From positions 1 to 27,236 of the forward strand of contig CM032194.1 in the NCBI GenBank assembly GCA_018985225.1: a DNA stretch of 27,236 bases. The letters are read 5' to 3'. The notes under the pieces are model-generated. The model did no database searches. It worked only from the letters and a program-made list of their open reading frames with translations, and had not been told where the DNA came from. Positions 1 through 27,236 of this stretch are shown here, piece after piece (positions within the stretch are counted from its first letter, which is position 1; each line of letters begins with the position of its first letter). This DNA is from Amoeboradix gromovi (Eukaryota; Sanchytriomycota; Sanchytriomycetes; Sanchytriales; Sanchytriaceae). The translations under genes and the position numbers were made by a program.

Positions 1-57
1 AGATTTATTAAGTTTATTTAGGTTTAGAAACTAAAGAAAAGGAAAACTTAAGAAAAG
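1..57. repeat. Hairpin element, family B
   Basis: Nested palindrome with outer arms TTATTAAG/CTTAAGAA and inner arms around a GTTTAGAAA loop. This copy crosses the point where the circle was cut; its left part is at 27115-27137, and the whole copy is repeated at 27115-27194. Confidence 0.85.
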
Positions 58-271
58 AAGAGAAGAAATAACGAAGAAATACACTAATGAAGCCCATCCA
101 AACAAAAAAACCACACGAAGTAGAGAAAAGGAAAAAAGGAAAATTTCTTAAGGTTCTTTAGGTATTAAACTAAAGAAGGAAAAAATCTTAAGAAAAAGGA
201 AAAAAGAAAAAGGAGAAGGGAGGAAAATAAGAAAAAAAGTGGAGGAAAGAGTTGAAGGATGAGGATAAATA
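58..271. other. Purine-rich spacer before tRNA-Met
   Basis: Mostly A/G-rich sequence holding one 50-nt compound hairpin (145-194). I see no reading frame of protein-like composition and no RNA gene; the first 42 bases are repeated at the window end because the molecule is circular. Confidence 0.6.
145..194. repeat. Compound hairpin element (family A, 50 nt)
   Basis: Outer arms TTCTTAAG/CTTAAGAA enclose an inner TTCTTTAG/CTAAAGAA hairpin with loop GTATTAAA. The inner module is bordered by GG on both sides. Confidence 0.9.
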
Positions 272-401: not shown

Positions 402-451
402 TTCTTAAGGTTCTTTAGGTATAAAACTAAAGAAGGATAAAATCTTAAGAA
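402..451. repeat. Compound hairpin element (family A, 50 nt)
   Basis: Same build as the copy at 145-194, with inner loop GTATAAAA. It sits in the leader between tRNA-Met and cox1. AG stands on both sides if the arms are extended by one T/A pair. Confidence 0.9.
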
Positions 452-527: not shown

Positions 528-5190
<4,663 letters not shown>

Positions 5191-5409: not shown

Positions 5410-5456
5410 TTCTTAAGGTTCTTTAGGTATTAAACTAAAGAAGGATAACTTAAGAA
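5410..5456. repeat. Hairpin element, family A, 3-nt shorter
   Basis: Compound element with normal inner module but a shortened right spacer (GATAA before CTTAAGAA). Between tRNA-Gly and tRNA-Thr. Confidence 0.88.
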
Positions 5457-5631: not shown

Positions 5632-5638
5632 TATTATA

Positions 5639-5697
5639 TCTTCTTTATTAAGGTTCTTTAGGTATTAAACTAAAGAAGGTATAATTCTTAAGAAGAA
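5639..5697. repeat. Extended hairpin element, copy 1
   Basis: Inner module with loop GTATTAAA inside longer outer arms CTTCTTTATTAAG and CTTAAGAAG. The element plus following AAATATAA-type flank is nearly repeated at 7486-7560, suggesting copying of a larger unit. Confidence 0.85.
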
Positions 5698-5739
5698 GTA
5701 AATATAATATTAAAAATAAATTATAAAAAATAGATCTTA

Positions 5740-5796
5740 AGATTTATTAAGTATCTTTAGGTTTAGAAACTAAAGAAAAGGAAAACTTAAGAAAAG
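5740..5796. repeat. Hairpin element, family B
   Basis: Preceded by AAAAAATAGATCTTAAG, the same upstream flank as the family B copy at 17860, so the two arose from one longer unit. Confidence 0.85.
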
Positions 5797-7445: not shown

Positions 7446-7485
7446 TAAATATATAAAGTTTCTTTAGGTATCAAAAAATTAATAA

Positions 7486-7560
7486 TCTTCTTTATTAAGG
7501 TTCTTTAGGTATTAAACTAAAGAAGGTATAATTCTTAAGAAGAAGTAAATATAAGATTAA
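7486..7560. repeat. Extended hairpin element, copy 2
   Basis: Near-identical to 5639-5713, including the downstream GTAAATATAA flank. Sits between convergent tRNA-Ser(gct) and tRNA-His. Confidence 0.85.
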
Positions 7561-7638
7561 ATATTAAATTAACTAAAGAAAAGGATAAAACGTAAACCCC
7601 TTCATTTTAATTAAGCTCTAGCATTATGTTATAAGAAA

Positions 7639-8225: not shown

Positions 8226-8275
8226 TTCTTAAGTATCTTTAGGTTTAGAAACTAAAGAAAAGGAAAACTTAAGAA
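8226..8275. repeat. Hairpin element, family B with TTCTTAAG left arm
   Basis: Has the GTTTAGAAA inner loop of family B but a perfect TTCTTAAG/CTTAAGAA outer stem, an intermediate between families. Confidence 0.87.
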
Positions 8276-9270: not shown

Positions 9271-9318
9271 TTTATTAAGGTTCTTTAGGTATTAAACTAA
9301 AGAAGGATAACTTAAGAA
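9271..9318. repeat. Hairpin element, family A, shortened right spacer
   Basis: Left arm TTATTAAG (one base off TTCTTAAG), inner module with GTATTAAA loop, then GATAA and CTTAAGAA as in the 5410 copy. Confidence 0.87.
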
Positions 9319-9348: not shown

Positions 9349-9419
9349 CAAGAGTGCCGGGATTTGAACTCGAATTTCTCCGTTTGAAGCGGAGTATTCT
9401 ACCATTGAATTACACTCTC
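9349..9419 (-). tRNA. tRNA-Trp(tca)
   Basis: Anticodon stem CTCCG/CGGAG around CTTCAAA. Anticodon TCA reads UGA and UGG, direct support for table 4. Acceptor GAGAGTG/CACTCTT with G-U first pair, discriminator G; one A-C mismatch in the T stem. Confidence 0.94.
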
Positions 9420-9420
9420 A

Positions 9421-9504
9421 AAGCACCAATTAAAGCACTAATTAAAGCACCAATTAAAGTACCAATTAAAGTACCAATTAAAGTACTAATTAAAGTACCA
9501 ATTA
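9421..9504. repeat. 12-nt tandem repeat, 7 exact-length units
   Basis: Units AAGCACCAATTA varying only at C/T in positions 4 and 7; 84 bases filling the gap between tRNA-Trp and tRNA-Val. A replication-slippage array, likely variable between isolates. Confidence 0.95.
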
Positions 9505-9516
9505 GAATAATTTAGA

Positions 9517-9684: not shown

Positions 9685-9744
9685 AAGATTTATTAAGTTT
9701 CTTTAGGTTTCTTAACTAAAGAAAAGGATTTTATACTTAAGAGG
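9685..9744. repeat. Hairpin element, divergent copy
   Basis: AGATTTATTAAG outer left arm and inner CTTTAG/CTAAAG stem with loop GTTTCTTAA, right spacer GGATTTTATA. Confidence 0.8.
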
Positions 9745-12112: not shown

Positions 12113-12162
12113 TTCTTAAGGTTCTTTAGGTATAAAACTAAAGAAGGAAAAAAACTTAAGAA
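12113..12162. repeat. Compound hairpin element (family A, 50 nt)
   Basis: Begins three bases after the nad4 stop; inner loop GTATAAAA. Confidence 0.9.
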
Positions 12163-12398: not shown

Positions 12399-12422
12399 TT
12401 CTTTAGGTTTATTTCTAAAGAA
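12399..12422. repeat. Lone inner hairpin module (24 nt)
   Basis: Arms TTCTTTAG/CTAAAGAA, loop GTTTATTT, with GAG on both sides. Same loop and flanks as the rns copy at 15587. Confidence 0.88.
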
Positions 12423-12780: not shown

Positions 12781-12830
12781 TTCTTAAGGTTCTTTAGGTA
12801 TAAAACTAAAGAAGGATAAAAACGTAAGAA
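12781..12830. repeat. Compound hairpin element with one arm change
   Basis: Fifty nt, as in intact copies, but the right arm reads CGTAAGAA, breaking one outer pair. Confidence 0.88.
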
Positions 12831-12960: not shown

Positions 12961-12987
12961 TTCTTAAGAAGGAAAAAATCTTAAGAA
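12961..12987. repeat. Short hairpin element
   Basis: TTCTTAAGAA then GGAAAAAAT and CTTAAGAA; an outer module with altered loop. Confidence 0.75.
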
Positions 12988-14922: not shown

Positions 14923-15094
14923 CTGGAAAATTTCTTAAAAAATCTTAAGAAAAAAGAAGAAGAAGAAAAAGGAAATTAGAACTAGCAGAGAGTTTATTAA
15001 GTTTATTTAGGTTTAGAAACTAAAGAAAAGGAAAACTTAAGAAAAGAGAGGTAAGAGACATGAATTAAAGGAAAAATTAAGATGAAAAAAGAAA
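14923..15094. other. nad5-rns spacer
   Basis: Contains a short hairpin (TTCTTAAAAAATCTTAAGAA near 14931) and a family B element at 14991-15045; no gene seen. Confidence 0.6.
14991..15045. repeat. Hairpin element, family B
   Basis: Outer TTATTAAG/CTTAAGAA, inner stem with GTTTAGAAA loop. Lies about 50 bases upstream of the rns 5' end. Confidence 0.87.
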
Positions 15095-15187: not shown

Positions 15188-15237
15188 TTCTTAAGGTTCT
15201 TTAGGTATAAAACTAAAGAAGGAAAAAAACTTAAGAA
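15188..15237. repeat. Compound hairpin element inside rns
   Basis: Fifty-nt family A element in the 5' domain, right after AAACATGCTAGTC and a short variable stretch. Loop GTATAAAA. Confidence 0.9.
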
Positions 15238-15586: not shown

Positions 15587-15610
15587 TTCTTTAGGTTTAT
15601 TTCTAAAGAA
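15587..15610. repeat. Lone inner module inside rns
   Basis: Arms TTCTTTAG/CTAAAGAA, loop GTTTATTT, GAG on each side as a possible target duplication. Confidence 0.88.
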
Positions 15611-15751: not shown

Positions 15752-15777
15752 TTACTTAAGGATAAAATCTTAAGTAA
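15752..15777. repeat. Outer module inside rns with compensated arms
   Basis: Arms TTACTTAAG/CTTAAGTAA, loop GATAAAAT. Relative to TTCTTAAG copies both arms carry the complementary change, so the stem is kept. Confidence 0.85.
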
Positions 15778-15819: not shown

Positions 15820-15839
15820 AAGGATAAAATCTTAAGAAA
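15820..15839. repeat. Half hairpin module inside rns
   Basis: AAGGATAAAATCTTAAGAAA: loop and right arm of the outer module without a left arm. Possibly a decayed copy. Confidence 0.7.
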
Positions 15840-16623: not shown

Positions 16624-16727
16624 TTTCTTATAAAATCTTAAGAAAAAGGAGAGAAGAAAGAGGAAAGTTTATTAAAGTTCTTTAGGTATTAAACTAAAGA
16701 AGGATAAAAAGGAAAAAATATTAAGAA
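16624..16727. repeat. Two hairpin elements downstream of rns
   Basis: A short one (TTCTTATAAAATCTTAAGAA, about 16625) and an inner-module element (16665-16727) with TTTATTAAAG on the left, loop GTATTAAA, and a longer right spacer ending ATTAAGAA. Confidence 0.8.
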
Positions 16728-17837: not shown

Positions 17838-17921
17838 GATTTATTAAGGAAAAAATAGATCTTAAGATTTATTAAGTATCTTTAGGTTTAGAAACTAAAG
17901 AAAAGGATAAAATATTAAGAA
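17838..17921. repeat. Hairpin element, family B, with long left flank
   Basis: Starts at the atp8 stop. AGATTTATTAAGG, AAAAAATAGATCTTAAG, then the family B core ending GGATAAAATATTAAGAA. Shares its left flank with the 5740 copy. Confidence 0.85.
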
Positions 17922-18305: not shown

Positions 18306-18400
18306 AAGGAAAATTTCCTTTTTCTTAAGAAAAAAAAAATAAGATTTATTAAGTTTATTTAGGTTTAGAAACTAAAGAAAAGGAAAACTTAAGAAAAGAA
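18306..18400. repeat. 95-nt block: GGAAAATTTCC + palindrome + family B hairpin
   Basis: Immediately after the nad4L stop. Order: palindrome GGAAAATTTCC, TTTTTCTTAAGAAAAA palindrome, then a family B element. The same block follows cob (19699) and, lacking the first palindrome, the rps3-like gene (27115). Confidence 0.9.
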
Positions 18401-18419
18401 GAGAAGAAAAAGGAGAAAG

Positions 18420-19698: not shown

Positions 19699-19789
19699 AG
19701 GAAAATTTCCTTTTTCTTAAGAAAAAAAAAATAAGATTTATTAAGTTTATTTAGGTTTAGAAACTAAAGAAAAGGAAAACTTAAGAAGA
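19699..19789. repeat. 95-nt block, copy after cob
   Basis: Near-identical to 18306-18400, including GGAAAATTTCC and the TTTTTCTTAAGAAAAA palindrome; the family B end reads CTTAAGAAGAG. Confidence 0.9.
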
Positions 19790-19803
19790 GAAGAAAAAGA
19801 GAG

Positions 19804-19883: not shown

Positions 19884-19924
19884 AAAGTTTATAAAGTTTC
19901 TTTAGGTATTTAAACTAAAGAAAG
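19884..19924. repeat. Inner hairpin, variant
   Basis: GTTTCTTTAG/CTAAAGAAA stem with loop GTATTTAAA, lacking a clear outer module; between tRNA-Ala and tRNA-Ser. Confidence 0.78.
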
Positions 19925-19947
19925 AGGATATAAATAAATTGTGTATT

Positions 19948-20649: not shown

Positions 20650-20675
20650 ATTTCTTATAAAATCTTAAGAAAAAG
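20650..20675. repeat. Short hairpin element
   Basis: TTCTTATAAAATCTTAAGAA, the same short form as at 16625, downstream of nad6. Confidence 0.75.
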
Positions 20676-20858: not shown

Positions 20859-20913
20859 GTTTCTTAAGGTTCTTTAGGTATAAAACTAAAGAAGGATAAA
20901 AAACTAAAGAAAA
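20859..20913. repeat. Compound hairpin element, altered right arm
   Basis: Inner loop GTATAAAA; the right outer arm reads ACTAAAGAA instead of CTTAAGAA, as if copied from the inner arm. Confidence 0.82.
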
Positions 20914-21061: not shown

Positions 21062-21085
21062 TTCTTAAGGATAAAAACTTAAGAA
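21062..21085. repeat. Lone outer module inside rnl
   Basis: TTCTTAAG/CTTAAGAA with loop GATAAAAA; AAAG stands directly on both sides. Confidence 0.88.
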
Positions 21086-21124: not shown

Positions 21125-21174
21125 TTATTAAGGTTCTTTAGGTATAAAACTAAAGAAGGAAAAAAACTTAAGAA
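21125..21174. repeat. Compound hairpin element inside rnl
   Basis: Fifty nt, left arm TTATTAAG, inner loop GTATAAAA. Nearly identical to the copy at 21581. Confidence 0.88.
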
Positions 21175-21580: not shown

Positions 21581-21630
21581 TTATTAAGGTTCTTTAGGTA
21601 TAAAACTAAAGAAGGAAAAAAACTTAAGAA
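21581..21630. repeat. Compound hairpin element inside rnl
   Basis: Fifty nt with TTATTAAG left arm, preceding the GACCCGAAAC segment of domain II. Confidence 0.88.
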
Positions 21631-21896: not shown

Positions 21897-21921
21897 TTCT
21901 TAAGGATAAAAAACTTAAGAA
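21897..21921. repeat. Lone outer module inside rnl
   Basis: Arms TTCTTAAG/CTTAAGAA, loop GATAAAAAA. Extended by one pair it is flanked by ACC on both sides. Confidence 0.85.
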
Positions 21922-21954: not shown

Positions 21955-22004
21955 TTCTTAAGGTTCTTTAGGTATAAAACTAAAGAAGGATAAAAACTTA
22001 AGAA
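21955..22004. repeat. Compound hairpin element inside rnl
   Basis: Fifty nt, inner loop GTATAAAA, only 33 bases downstream of the lone outer module at 21897. Confidence 0.9.
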
Positions 22005-22111: not shown

Positions 22112-22136
22112 TTTATTAAGGATAAAATCTTAAGAA
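22112..22136. repeat. Lone outer module inside rnl
   Basis: TTATTAAG/CTTAAGAA, loop GATAAAAT. Confidence 0.83.
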
Positions 22137-22346: not shown

Positions 22347-22370
22347 TTATTAAGGATAAAAACTTAAGAA
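22347..22370. repeat. Lone outer module inside rnl
   Basis: TTATTAAG/CTTAAGAA, loop GATAAAAA. Confidence 0.83.
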
Positions 22371-22748: not shown

Positions 22749-23534
22749 GTGCGACGTGACAGCTCATATTCAATACTCCTTGTGAGTCTTGAGTTTTGTC
22801 CCTCATGTATCTATCCTGACATGCGTTGAGAGTAATCTCTAGGTGTGGAGCTCAGGAGACAAAGTAGCCTAAGGGAGCGAGATATAATACAGCACTAGGA
22901 CAAATGGTAACGTGAAAGTATGAAGAGGCATTATATATTCAGGTTATGTTTTCGTAAACTGGCATAACAGGATGAATAGCGAAGTATATAGTGTAGAGTA
23001 CTTGTCTAAGGTGTTGTTTGGTGGATATGAGTGAACACGGTAAGCCCAATGGGATTGATGTTGAAAAACAGAAAGGAAGAGACGTAAGTGGATTTATCTC
23101 CCAGTGGGTAGACGAGATAGGAGAAAGCAAATGGTCACTTGTAATGAGTGATATAGACTCTTTTGAGTTGATCCGAAAGGGTGCAAAATTCCTTAAGGTG
23201 GTTAGGTCTAATTGATTACTTTGCCTCTTCTTATTAGTGTGTAATGCACATGCAGGATAGTGACCTTAGCTCCTGGAAAGCATGATGGGTGGCGTAATCA
23301 GGTAAGAGTAGGAGCCGTAACCACTAGAATAAATAGCCAAATAATAAAGAAATATGATAAGAAAACAAAATAAAATATTAGAAGCATATAAGTTAGGAAA
23401 CAAGAAGAAATGTTTGTACTCTATAATGCTCCTGTCCCAAGAGGGCAGGTCGTACTGCTTGAGCTGTATGCGGTGAAAGTCGCACGTACAGTTCTGAGGG
23501 GGGGAAAATCCTGAGAAGGAAATACCTATCCCAA
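22749..23534 (+). mobile_element. ORF-less group II intron in rnl
   Basis: About 786 nt. The 5' end GTGCGACG fits the group II GUGYG rule. Domain V is the 34-nt hairpin at 23461-23494, with arms GAGCTGTA/TACAGTTC, the AGC triad and a GAAA tetraloop, followed by a domain VI-like hairpin. IBS1 GTTTAC (22743-22748) is fully complementary to an EBS1 candidate GTAAAC at 22954-22959. Joined exons read TGTTTACCAAAAACAC, the normal rnl sequence, although the 3' cut could be one base later. No reverse transcriptase ORF. Base composition is visibly richer in G+C than the rest, suggesting transfer. Confidence 0.9.
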
Positions 23535-25750: not shown

Positions 25751-25800
25751 TTCTTAAGGTTCTTTAGGTATTTAACTAAAGAAGGAAAAAATCTTAAGAA
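25751..25800. repeat. Compound hairpin element (family A, 50 nt)
   Basis: Just after rnl; inner loop GTATTTAA, outer arms perfect. Confidence 0.9.
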
Positions 25801-25815: not shown

Positions 25816-25870
25816 GTTTATTAAGTATCTTTAGGTTTAGAAACTAAAGAAAAGGATAAAATATTAAGAA
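25816..25870. repeat. Hairpin element, family B
   Basis: TTATTAAGTAT left side, GTTTAGAAA loop, GGATAAAATATTAAGAA right side, as in the copy ending at 17921. Confidence 0.86.
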
Positions 25871-26628: not shown

Positions 26629-27138
26629 ATGAGAAAAGAAGATTTAAATTGAAAAAAATGGAAGGAAAATAGAATAGGGGAAATAATAGAGAAAGGAAGA
26701 CAAGAAAAATGAACATGGAAAATGAAAGAGAATAAGATAGGATATAAAAGAAATGAGAGTGTAATATTAACTGATGAAAAGGATAATAAATGAATAGGTG
26801 GAAATAAGATAGAGATGCCGGAGAGAGGGATAGGATATTTAAATTTAAGATTGTTAGAAAAGTATATAACTAATAGTCAACAAAAAGGATATAAACCACC
26901 GGCAATAGAGAAGATAAGAACAGGGAAGATAGAAATAAAGGGAATAAGAGTAGAGAAAGGAGGAAATATAATGAATGAAACAAGGAAGAATATACAAAAA
27001 GAAACAATAGGAACATTTAAAAATAAATTAATAAGAAAGTTAGATTTTCCATTATACAATAGAAGAGCTATAATAGGACATAAGATAAAAATAGCGTGAT
27101 CAGTAAATGAAAACTTTTTCTTAAGAAAAAAAAAATAA
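26629..27138 (+). CDS. rps3: Putative ribosomal protein S3 (rps3-like)
   Basis: 169-residue basic, soluble ORF, needing TGA as Trp at several codons, starting one base after the cox2 stop. The C-terminal half recalls bacterial-type uS3: LRLLEKYITNSQQKG (helix before the domain), IEIKGIRVEKGG in the place of the conserved GIKIxVSGRLxG, and DFPLYNRRAIIGHKIKIAW in the place of the IDYxxxxxxTxxGxIGVKVWI ending. It is far shorter than most fungal Rps3 and lacks a recognisable KH domain. Its last codons (FFLRKKK, stop TAA at 27136) come from the hairpin repeat that follows. Identity is inferred from weak motifs and from rps3 being the only commonly expected gene otherwise missing. Confidence 0.55.
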
Positions 27139-27194
27139 GATTTATTAAGTTTATTTAGGTTTAGAAACTAAAGAAAAGGAAAACTTAAGAAAAG
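27115..27194. repeat. 95-nt block, copy at the genome junction
   Basis: TTTTTCTTAAGAAAAA palindrome and family B element, overlapping the 3' end of the rps3-like ORF. Continues across the circle join. Confidence 0.88.
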
Positions 27195-27236
27195 AAGAGA
27201 AGAAATAACGAAGAAATACACTAATGAAGCCCATCC
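27138..27236. repeat. Terminal redundancy (equals 1-99)
   Basis: Read base for base, these 99 bases equal the first 99 of the window. The simplest reading is a circular molecule of about 27,137 bp that was written past its start; a linear molecule with direct terminal repeats is less likely. Confidence 0.93.

Follow-up and report, generated by a model that had tools for sequence, protein, structure and literature searches.

The mitochondrial DNA (mtDNA) of Amoeboradix gromovi probably carries miniature, non-coding mobile hairpins that form two sister subfamilies, insert at short, mostly purine targets and nest one kind inside the other. The window, meaning the whole stretch of 27,236 nucleotides that was analysed, is a complete circular mtDNA of 27,137 bp whose first and last 99 bases are identical. 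Its G+C content is 30.7%, compared with 35.5 to 36.5% in three 10-kb nuclear stretches; the published description gives 27,055 bp and 30.69% G+C for the mtDNA and 36.27% G+C for the nuclear genome, and places Sanchytriomycota, the phylum of A. gromovi, as sister to Blastocladiomycota (PMC8371127). Both rRNA genes are present, 24 tRNA genes are predicted, and cox, nad, cob, atp and LAGLIDADG open reading frames (ORFs) are found with TGA read as Trp (code 4). Rfam intron matches are confined to 22788-22943 and 23459-23534, and group II intron signatures occur in rnl. By our own reading, ORF 26629-27138, for which no Pfam family was found, would be rps3, and a small ORF would be atp9. The first cox1 intron (528-3300) seems to carry two successive LAGLIDADG ORFs (one to 2186, the other at 2229-3188).

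Two short palindromic modules make up the elements. The outer module is TTCTTAAGGATAAAATCTTAAGAA, with the stem TTCTTAAG/CTTAAGAA, and the inner module is TTCTTTAGGTATTAAACTAAAGAA, with the stem TTCTTTAG/CTAAAGAA; both are AT-rich, with 5 of 24 bases G or C. Each occurs alone, and they are combined in compounds of two classes. In the first class (C1), TTCTTAAGG is followed by the inner module, GG and the rest of the outer module. In the second (C2), TTATTAAG (once TTCTTAAG) is followed by T and a 25-nt inner module, then AAG and the rest, in all 8 copies tested. The copies, together with the ORF that holds two of them, are as follows.

145..194, + strand, C1 compound: outer TTCTTAAGG, inner of 24 nt, GG and outer right half; 9-nt direct repeat AAAGGAAAA on the flanks (one T aside)
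402..451, + strand, C1 compound: inner module at 411..434; when emptied, identical to the lone outer of 2257; AAG repeated on the flanks (one T aside)
5410..5456, + strand, C1 compound: shorter, with the 21-nt outer form
5645..5694, + strand, C1 compound: outer stem extended; near-copy of 7492-7541; flanking repeat absent
7492..7541, + strand, C1 compound: outer stem extended; decayed half inner ahead of it at 7447-7480
9272..9318, + strand, C1 compound: outer of the 21-nt form; runs antisense within the block of minus-strand genes
12113..12162, + strand, C1 compound: starts 3 nt past the nad4 ORF (end 12109)
12781..12830, + strand, C1 compound: one change in the outer arm; after the small ORF read as atp9
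15188..15237, + strand, C1 compound: inside rns
16669..16727, + strand, altered C1 compound: outer loop longer
20861..20911, + strand, altered C1 compound: outer right arm changed
21125..21174, + strand, C1 compound: at the rnl 5' end
21581..21630, + strand, C1 compound: inside rnl
21955..22004, + strand, C1 compound: inside rnl; empty form equal to the lone outer at 21062
25751..25800, + strand, C1 compound: in the rnl-cox2 spacer; AGA repeated on the flanks (one C aside)
5..54, + strand, C2 compound: outer TTATTAAG, T and 25-nt inner, AAG and rest; repeated at 27142 through the 99-nt end overlap
5744..5793, + strand, C2 compound
8226..8275, + strand, C2 compound: antisense to the adjoining minus-strand genes
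9690..9740, + strand, C2 variant: in the minus-strand gene block
14994..15043, + strand, C2 compound: 6-nt AGAGAG flanking repeat (one base aside on each side)
17869..17921, + strand, C2 inner in a 24-nt outer form
18346..18395, + strand, C2 compound: left flank common to 19738 and 5 (larger copied segment)
19738..19787, + strand, C2 compound: left flank common to 18346 and 5
19890..19935, + strand, C2 variant: degraded outer around the inner
25818..25870, + strand, C2 inner in a 24-nt outer form
2257..2280, + strand, lone outer: in frame in the LAGLIDADG ORF; AAG on both sides
2846..2869, + strand, lone inner: in frame in the LAGLIDADG ORF (SSLGIKLKN); TAG on both sides
12399..12422, + strand, lone inner: loop GTTTATTT; GAG on both sides
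15587..15610, + strand, lone inner: within rns; flanked by GAG left and right
12961..12987, + strand, outer with AAG twice and without an inner: footprint-like, TTCTTAAG then AAGG; flanking repeat absent
15752..15777, + strand, outer-like hairpin: inside rns; stem lengthened, TTACTTAAG/CTTAAGTAA
21062..21085, + strand, lone outer
21897..21921, + strand, lone outer of 25 nt: AACC flanking repeat (one T aside)
22113..22136, + strand, lone outer
22347..22370, + strand, lone outer: one arm mismatch, TTATTAAG
14932..14951, + strand, short-loop outer of 20 nt: similar hairpins at 16625-16644 and 20652-20671
2229..3188, + strand, LAGLIDADG ORF: read with code 4; reading frame already open at 2187; flanked by cox1 exons; holds in-frame copies of a lone outer and a lone inner

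The modules far exceed chance expectation and are specific to the mtDNA. The inner pattern, scanned on both strands with up to 2 mismatches, was found at 18 sites (36 rows) against 0.01 expected from 100 dinucleotide shuffles, and the outer pattern at 5 sites against 0.00 expected. Across the assembly (6.78 Mb, 366 contigs), a combined pattern was found at 22 sites, all on the mitochondrial contig and all on the + strand, with 0 sites on the reverse strand and 0 for a backward control pattern. Among the 28 inner copies compared (the decayed copy at 7460 excluded), the right arm is identical in all 28, the left arm varies and the loop takes seven forms. The outer and inner modules are identical at 17 of 24 positions, one stem pair having undergone a compensated change in both arms. 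Because this likeness was reached by only 0.4% of random stem-loop pairs of the same make-up, in one simple simulation, they probably represent sister subfamilies of a single AT-rich hairpin. An earlier note on this DNA, which correctly located all 12 of the sites that it listed (six 50-nt compounds, three lone outers and three lone inners), had taken the modules for two independent units. Two types do exist, each alone and combined, but their independence is doubtful given this probable kinship. The catalogue further adds seven intact C1 copies (5410, 5645, 7492, 9272, 12781, 21125 and 21581), the C2 class, the two lone copies in frame in an ORF and the copies in both rRNA genes.

The nesting itself is precise. 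Removing 24 nt plus one GG, the arithmetic given in the earlier note, restores an outer module in 13 of 13 C1 compounds tested (the altered compounds at 16669 and 20861 excluded). The emptied form of 402 is the lone outer at 2257 letter for letter, and that of 21955 the lone outer at 21062; the other 11 emptied forms differ from the lone outers by 1 base in seven cases and by 4 in two, and the last two belong to the 21-nt form. For the C2 class, no lone outer matching the empty forms of the 8 copies tested was found in the mtDNA. Insertion had also been thought to favour one spot in the outer module. The inner module plus a short repeated target was indeed recovered, but no one fixed spot, since C1 inners stand after AAGG with GG repeated and C2 inners after AAG with AAG repeated. 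Outers exist in 21-nt and 24-nt forms, each of which occurs with C1 and with C2, and these four pairings argue for more than one nesting event, or else for recombination or repeated insertions and deletions. It can be suggested only tentatively that this family makes its compounds by self-nesting, with a module homing on the AAG(G) where the stem of its sibling meets the loop, and doing so several times.

The direction of change can also be read the other way. If the compound were the original form, lone outers would be losses by replication slippage across the palindrome, between AAGG and AAGG, deleting exactly 26 nt. Short repeats around a palindrome are a classic slippage substrate, the 21 intact compounds tested exceed the 5 full-length lone outers, and the same outer variants occur both filled and empty. 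Moreover, the outer at 12961, with AAG twice and the inner absent, is like an excision footprint. However, the lone inners at 2846, 12399 and 15587 have no outer at all, and C1 and C2 differ in inner type and in repeated bases. The lone outer at 2257 also lies within an ORF, where a 50-nt compound would bring stops in every frame, as seen in all three frames of the two compounds tested. Origin by slippage is thus considered unlikely, and gain of the inner module is favoured over its loss, without being proven.

Two lone copies lie in the LAGLIDADG ORF. Each module has one open frame out of three, and the ORF uses that frame in both cases. The lone inner at 2846 adds nine residues, SSLGIKLKN, to the frame open from 2187 to 3188. 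Among the best 120 of 510 homologs, 107 have no residue aligned to these nine and 13 have 1-9 residues. The ORF counts 24 residues from anchor SFQ to anchor RLN, where 94 of the same 120 homologs have 14, 117 have 12-20 and 3 have a longer stretch of 32 or 33. Removing 27 nt (the 24-nt module and one TAG) leaves 15 residues, so that the emptied protein would be ordinary among its homologs. For the lone outer at 2257, the stretch from SLN to WK measures 20 residues as against 11, 7 and 8 in three comparable homologs, an excess of nine over the nearest; these lengths were counted by eye, 11 of the 120 homologs being aligned there and three keeping a comparable stretch. In one homolog (P0001), TLRTEILR stands in the place of the outer-encoded VLKDKILR, with 4 of 8 residues identical, so this copy may align otherwise, and its case is weaker than that of the inner at 2846. 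A second homolog (P0002) has SSLKN at the inner site, which could be an older or shortened related element in another organism, or chance; a scan of a contig collection for the DNA encoding P0002 found no relative. Short mitochondrial insertions are otherwise represented by the ultra-short elements of Podospora and the byp elements of Magnusiomyces, the latter within coding genes. Here, both ORF copies preserve the reading frame and therefore call for no ribosomal bypass.

Direct repeats at the element borders provide the second line of evidence. They were examined for 32 elements, the near-copies at 5, 7492 and 19738 and the altered copies at 9690, 19890 and 20861 being excluded. With one base set aside per side, the total match was 100 compared with 67.8 when right flanks were permuted (p 0.0001), and 23 of 32 elements had a repeat of at least 3 nt (p printed as 0.0000 in 20,000 shuffles). 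With no base aside, the total fell to 37 against 22.6 (p 0.0026; 10 of 32 elements), and the count among the compounds alone was 3 of 19 (p 0.13). When one element end was shifted by 1 nt, 24 of 32 elements had repeats of at least 3 nt, whereas neighbouring sequence averaged 4.6 (p 0.0003, the lowest value that the test can give), a null that is lenient in that element edges are A-rich. Repeats peak at the edges, with a total of 81 when one left base is dropped, whereas 64 control cells had a mean of 26.7 and a maximum of 46. The most telling repeats are AACC (21897), AGAGAG (14994), AAAGGAAAA (145), TAG (2846) and GAG (15587). AG is part of many repeats, but the flanks are purine-rich and 9 of the 24 repeats are runs of AAA or AAAA only; in 8 of 32 elements the repeat is shorter than 3 nt, and at 12961 and 5645 there is none. 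The earlier note's claim of mobility is thereby supported, by the in-frame copy at 2846 and by these flanking repeats. The A-run repeats and the weaker result at exact edges slightly lower confidence in the mobile-hairpin reading, which is still held to be the probable one.

The position and orientation of the copies speak to a possible function. A copy is present in 19 of the 22 spacers of at least 60 nt and in none of the 17 shorter ones, with gene limits placed by hand and atp9 counted as spacer. One of the three long spacers without modules, between two tRNA genes, is filled by a 12-nt tandem repeat (9408-9509). The fold of C1, one stem enclosed in another, is better than that of shuffled sequences, with z from -2.5 to -4.0 as RNA (three copies) and from -3.6 to -4.5 as DNA; C2 is barely above shuffles (z -1.1 and -1.6 as RNA, -1.6 as DNA). 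The spacer distribution and the good folding of C1 (z -2.5 to -4.5) would suit functional RNA hairpins that act between genes as transcript ends or as processing signals, with gene conversion keeping the copies uniform. However, all 22 exact sites lie on the + strand, even in the minus-strand gene block, where three copies (8226, 9272 and 9690) are antisense; that orientation follows the chromosome and not the genes argues against a simple signal for RNA processing. Stem pairs are also often broken (a mismatch occurs in 8 of the 28 inner copies and in 18 of the 30 outer ones), and copies lie inside an ORF and both rRNA genes, at 15188, 15587 and 15752 in rns and at 21581, 21897, 21955, 22113 and 22347 in rnl. 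Such a signalling role is accordingly given very little credence. In the rRNA alignments, the copies are located where lengths differ from the Rfam models (85 positions around 15188 in rns as against 31, the model being 54 shorter; 58 around 21581 in rnl as against 15, the model being 43 shorter), a coincidence that may reflect insertion but does not thereby prove it.

An origin of the copies as by-products of segmental duplication and recombination among AT-rich spacers would suit the 10 of 435 copy pairs that share flanks (at least 20 of 30 bases on one side; examples are 5/18346/19738 on the left and 5645/7492 on the right). It is held to be highly improbable, as the remaining 425 pairs stay below that level on both sides, the direct repeats peak at element edges and the excess in the ORF is module-sized. 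The 10 pairs with common flanks do imply that some copies spread within larger segments. One such segment, with C2 at its right end, is present at 27118-27199, 18322-18403 and 19714-19795, where 28 to 30 of the 30 left-flank bases agree. The copy at 27118 seems to provide the ORF read as rps3 with its final codons and stop. The stretches 5638-5720 and 7485-7567, each holding a C1 compound with an extra outer stem and 96% identical over 83 nt, likewise look like a larger copied unit.

Under the mobile-hairpin reading, a module would enter a short target that is mostly purine and often ends in AG, leaving a few bases of that target (mostly 2-4) on both sides of itself, the flanking repeats thus being interpreted as target duplications. 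Inner modules would have landed in outers more than once, giving C1 with GG repeated and C2 with AAG repeated, and compounds would later have moved as units, some with flanking segments. The least certain part is the mechanism, which might be a DNA-level event at a staggered break, the hairpin being copied in by a template-switching polymerase, possibly with help from the intron-encoded LAGLIDADG nucleases, the obvious local candidates for the enzyme. LAGLIDADG nucleases make 4-nt staggered cuts. A route through RNA finds less favour, since the mitochondrial contig showed no reverse transcriptase: a PF00078 profile search of the assembly gave none there and at least six matches on at least four nuclear contigs. 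Among the 16 frames of at least 60 aa around the rnl intron, the 8 searched gave no reverse transcriptase domain and one weak DUF1048 match (E 0.19).

A further likeness concerns the small-subunit rRNA. Positions 15820-15838 of rns share 19 nt (AAGGATAAAATCTTAAGAA) with the outer module, compared with a maximum of 15 in 200 shuffles of the element-masked genome. This stretch aligns to the 690-loop hairpin (helix 23) of the small-subunit rRNA, and the outer module may come from that hairpin or may have overwritten it.

The elements are of a known hairpin-element kind, but what sets them apart is that they are AT-rich, that one unit nests in another with target bases repeated, and that copies the size of a module stand in frame in an intron ORF. 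A description of nested AT-rich mitochondrial modules was not found in the literature searched, a search that most subscription papers and the primary Allomyces, Podospora and byp papers lay outside, and the word hairpin does not occur in the main text of the sanchytrid genome paper (PMC8371127). Three papers that came up for nesting use the word nested in other senses. The GC clusters of Saccharomyces mtDNA (GC42, GC18) are described as GC-rich palindromes, whereas the modules here are palindromic but AT-rich; the clusters are flanked by short direct repeats (AG or ACT), and they also undergo mergers (PMC4478555). The short repeats in excess here, many of which include AG, may be comparable, though 9 of the 24 are A runs and the flanks are purine-rich. 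Merger in yeast joins and shuffles units, and the yeast GC-cluster text of Wu and Hao 2015 does not contain the word nested (PMC4478555); here one unit lies inside another, and target bases are repeated.

The double-hairpin elements of Allomyces and fission yeasts are likewise described as mitochondrial, located in spacers and rRNA genes, built of two stems and thought to be mobile (PMC10085805, PMC4618339). Allomyces is a blastocladiomycete and so belongs to the sister line of Sanchytriomycota (PMC8371127). However, the fission-yeast elements were found by a G+C content above 75% (PMC10085805), compared with 5 of 24 bases here, double-hairpin elements are described as two adjacent stem-loops (PMC4618339) where C1 is a stem within a stem, and the Allomyces elements reportedly have no duplications at their flanks, according to a citation in PMC2800124. 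Membership of the double-hairpin family was rejected on the grounds of stem-in-stem build and AT-richness, as against adjacent stems and GC-richness, with dispersal in spacers and rRNA genes in agreement. Identity with group I or group II introns was rejected as well, the elements measuring 20-60 nt and Rfam introns being matched only at the two sites given above. Some repetitive hairpin elements of sponges are also very AT-rich, with copies in rRNA and less often in protein genes, but the doubles of Vaceletia are described as tandem insertions rather than nested ones, and the mechanism of transposition could not be judged according to that account (PMC2800124). The palindromic A/T microsatellites of Fusarium mtDNA are likewise AT-rich, optional between species and putatively mobile, but are plain A-run/T-run palindromes without fixed modules, unlike those described here (PMC7218506).

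The case for mobility is built within a single genome, from features internal to it rather than from presence or absence at a homologous site. Relatives were sought in a viral-contig collection with the C1 pattern, the inner pattern, cob, nad5, P0002 and P0121, and in a genome-contig collection with the inner pattern; none was found in either, and both may leave out near records. The pattern matches, in 8 (nad5), 15 (P0002) and 16 (P0121) stretches, encoded no relative. A cob protein search gave a best identity of 78%, then up to 66%, among the best 120 of 8000 scored, and named no close relative.

How mobile hairpins move in mitochondria and how compound ones originate has stayed open, and many cases show only scattered copies. 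Here, one genome of 27 kb combines empty and filled forms, both modules alone, an in-frame excess and flanking repeats, so that rules of insertion become readable; these can then be tested against the known sister species Sanchytrium tribonematis, whose mtDNA measures 24,749 bp (PMC8371127). The nesting suggests how compound mitochondrial hairpins can be built and, if true, self-nesting would offer the lineage sister to that of Allomyces a general way of making two-stem mitochondrial elements.
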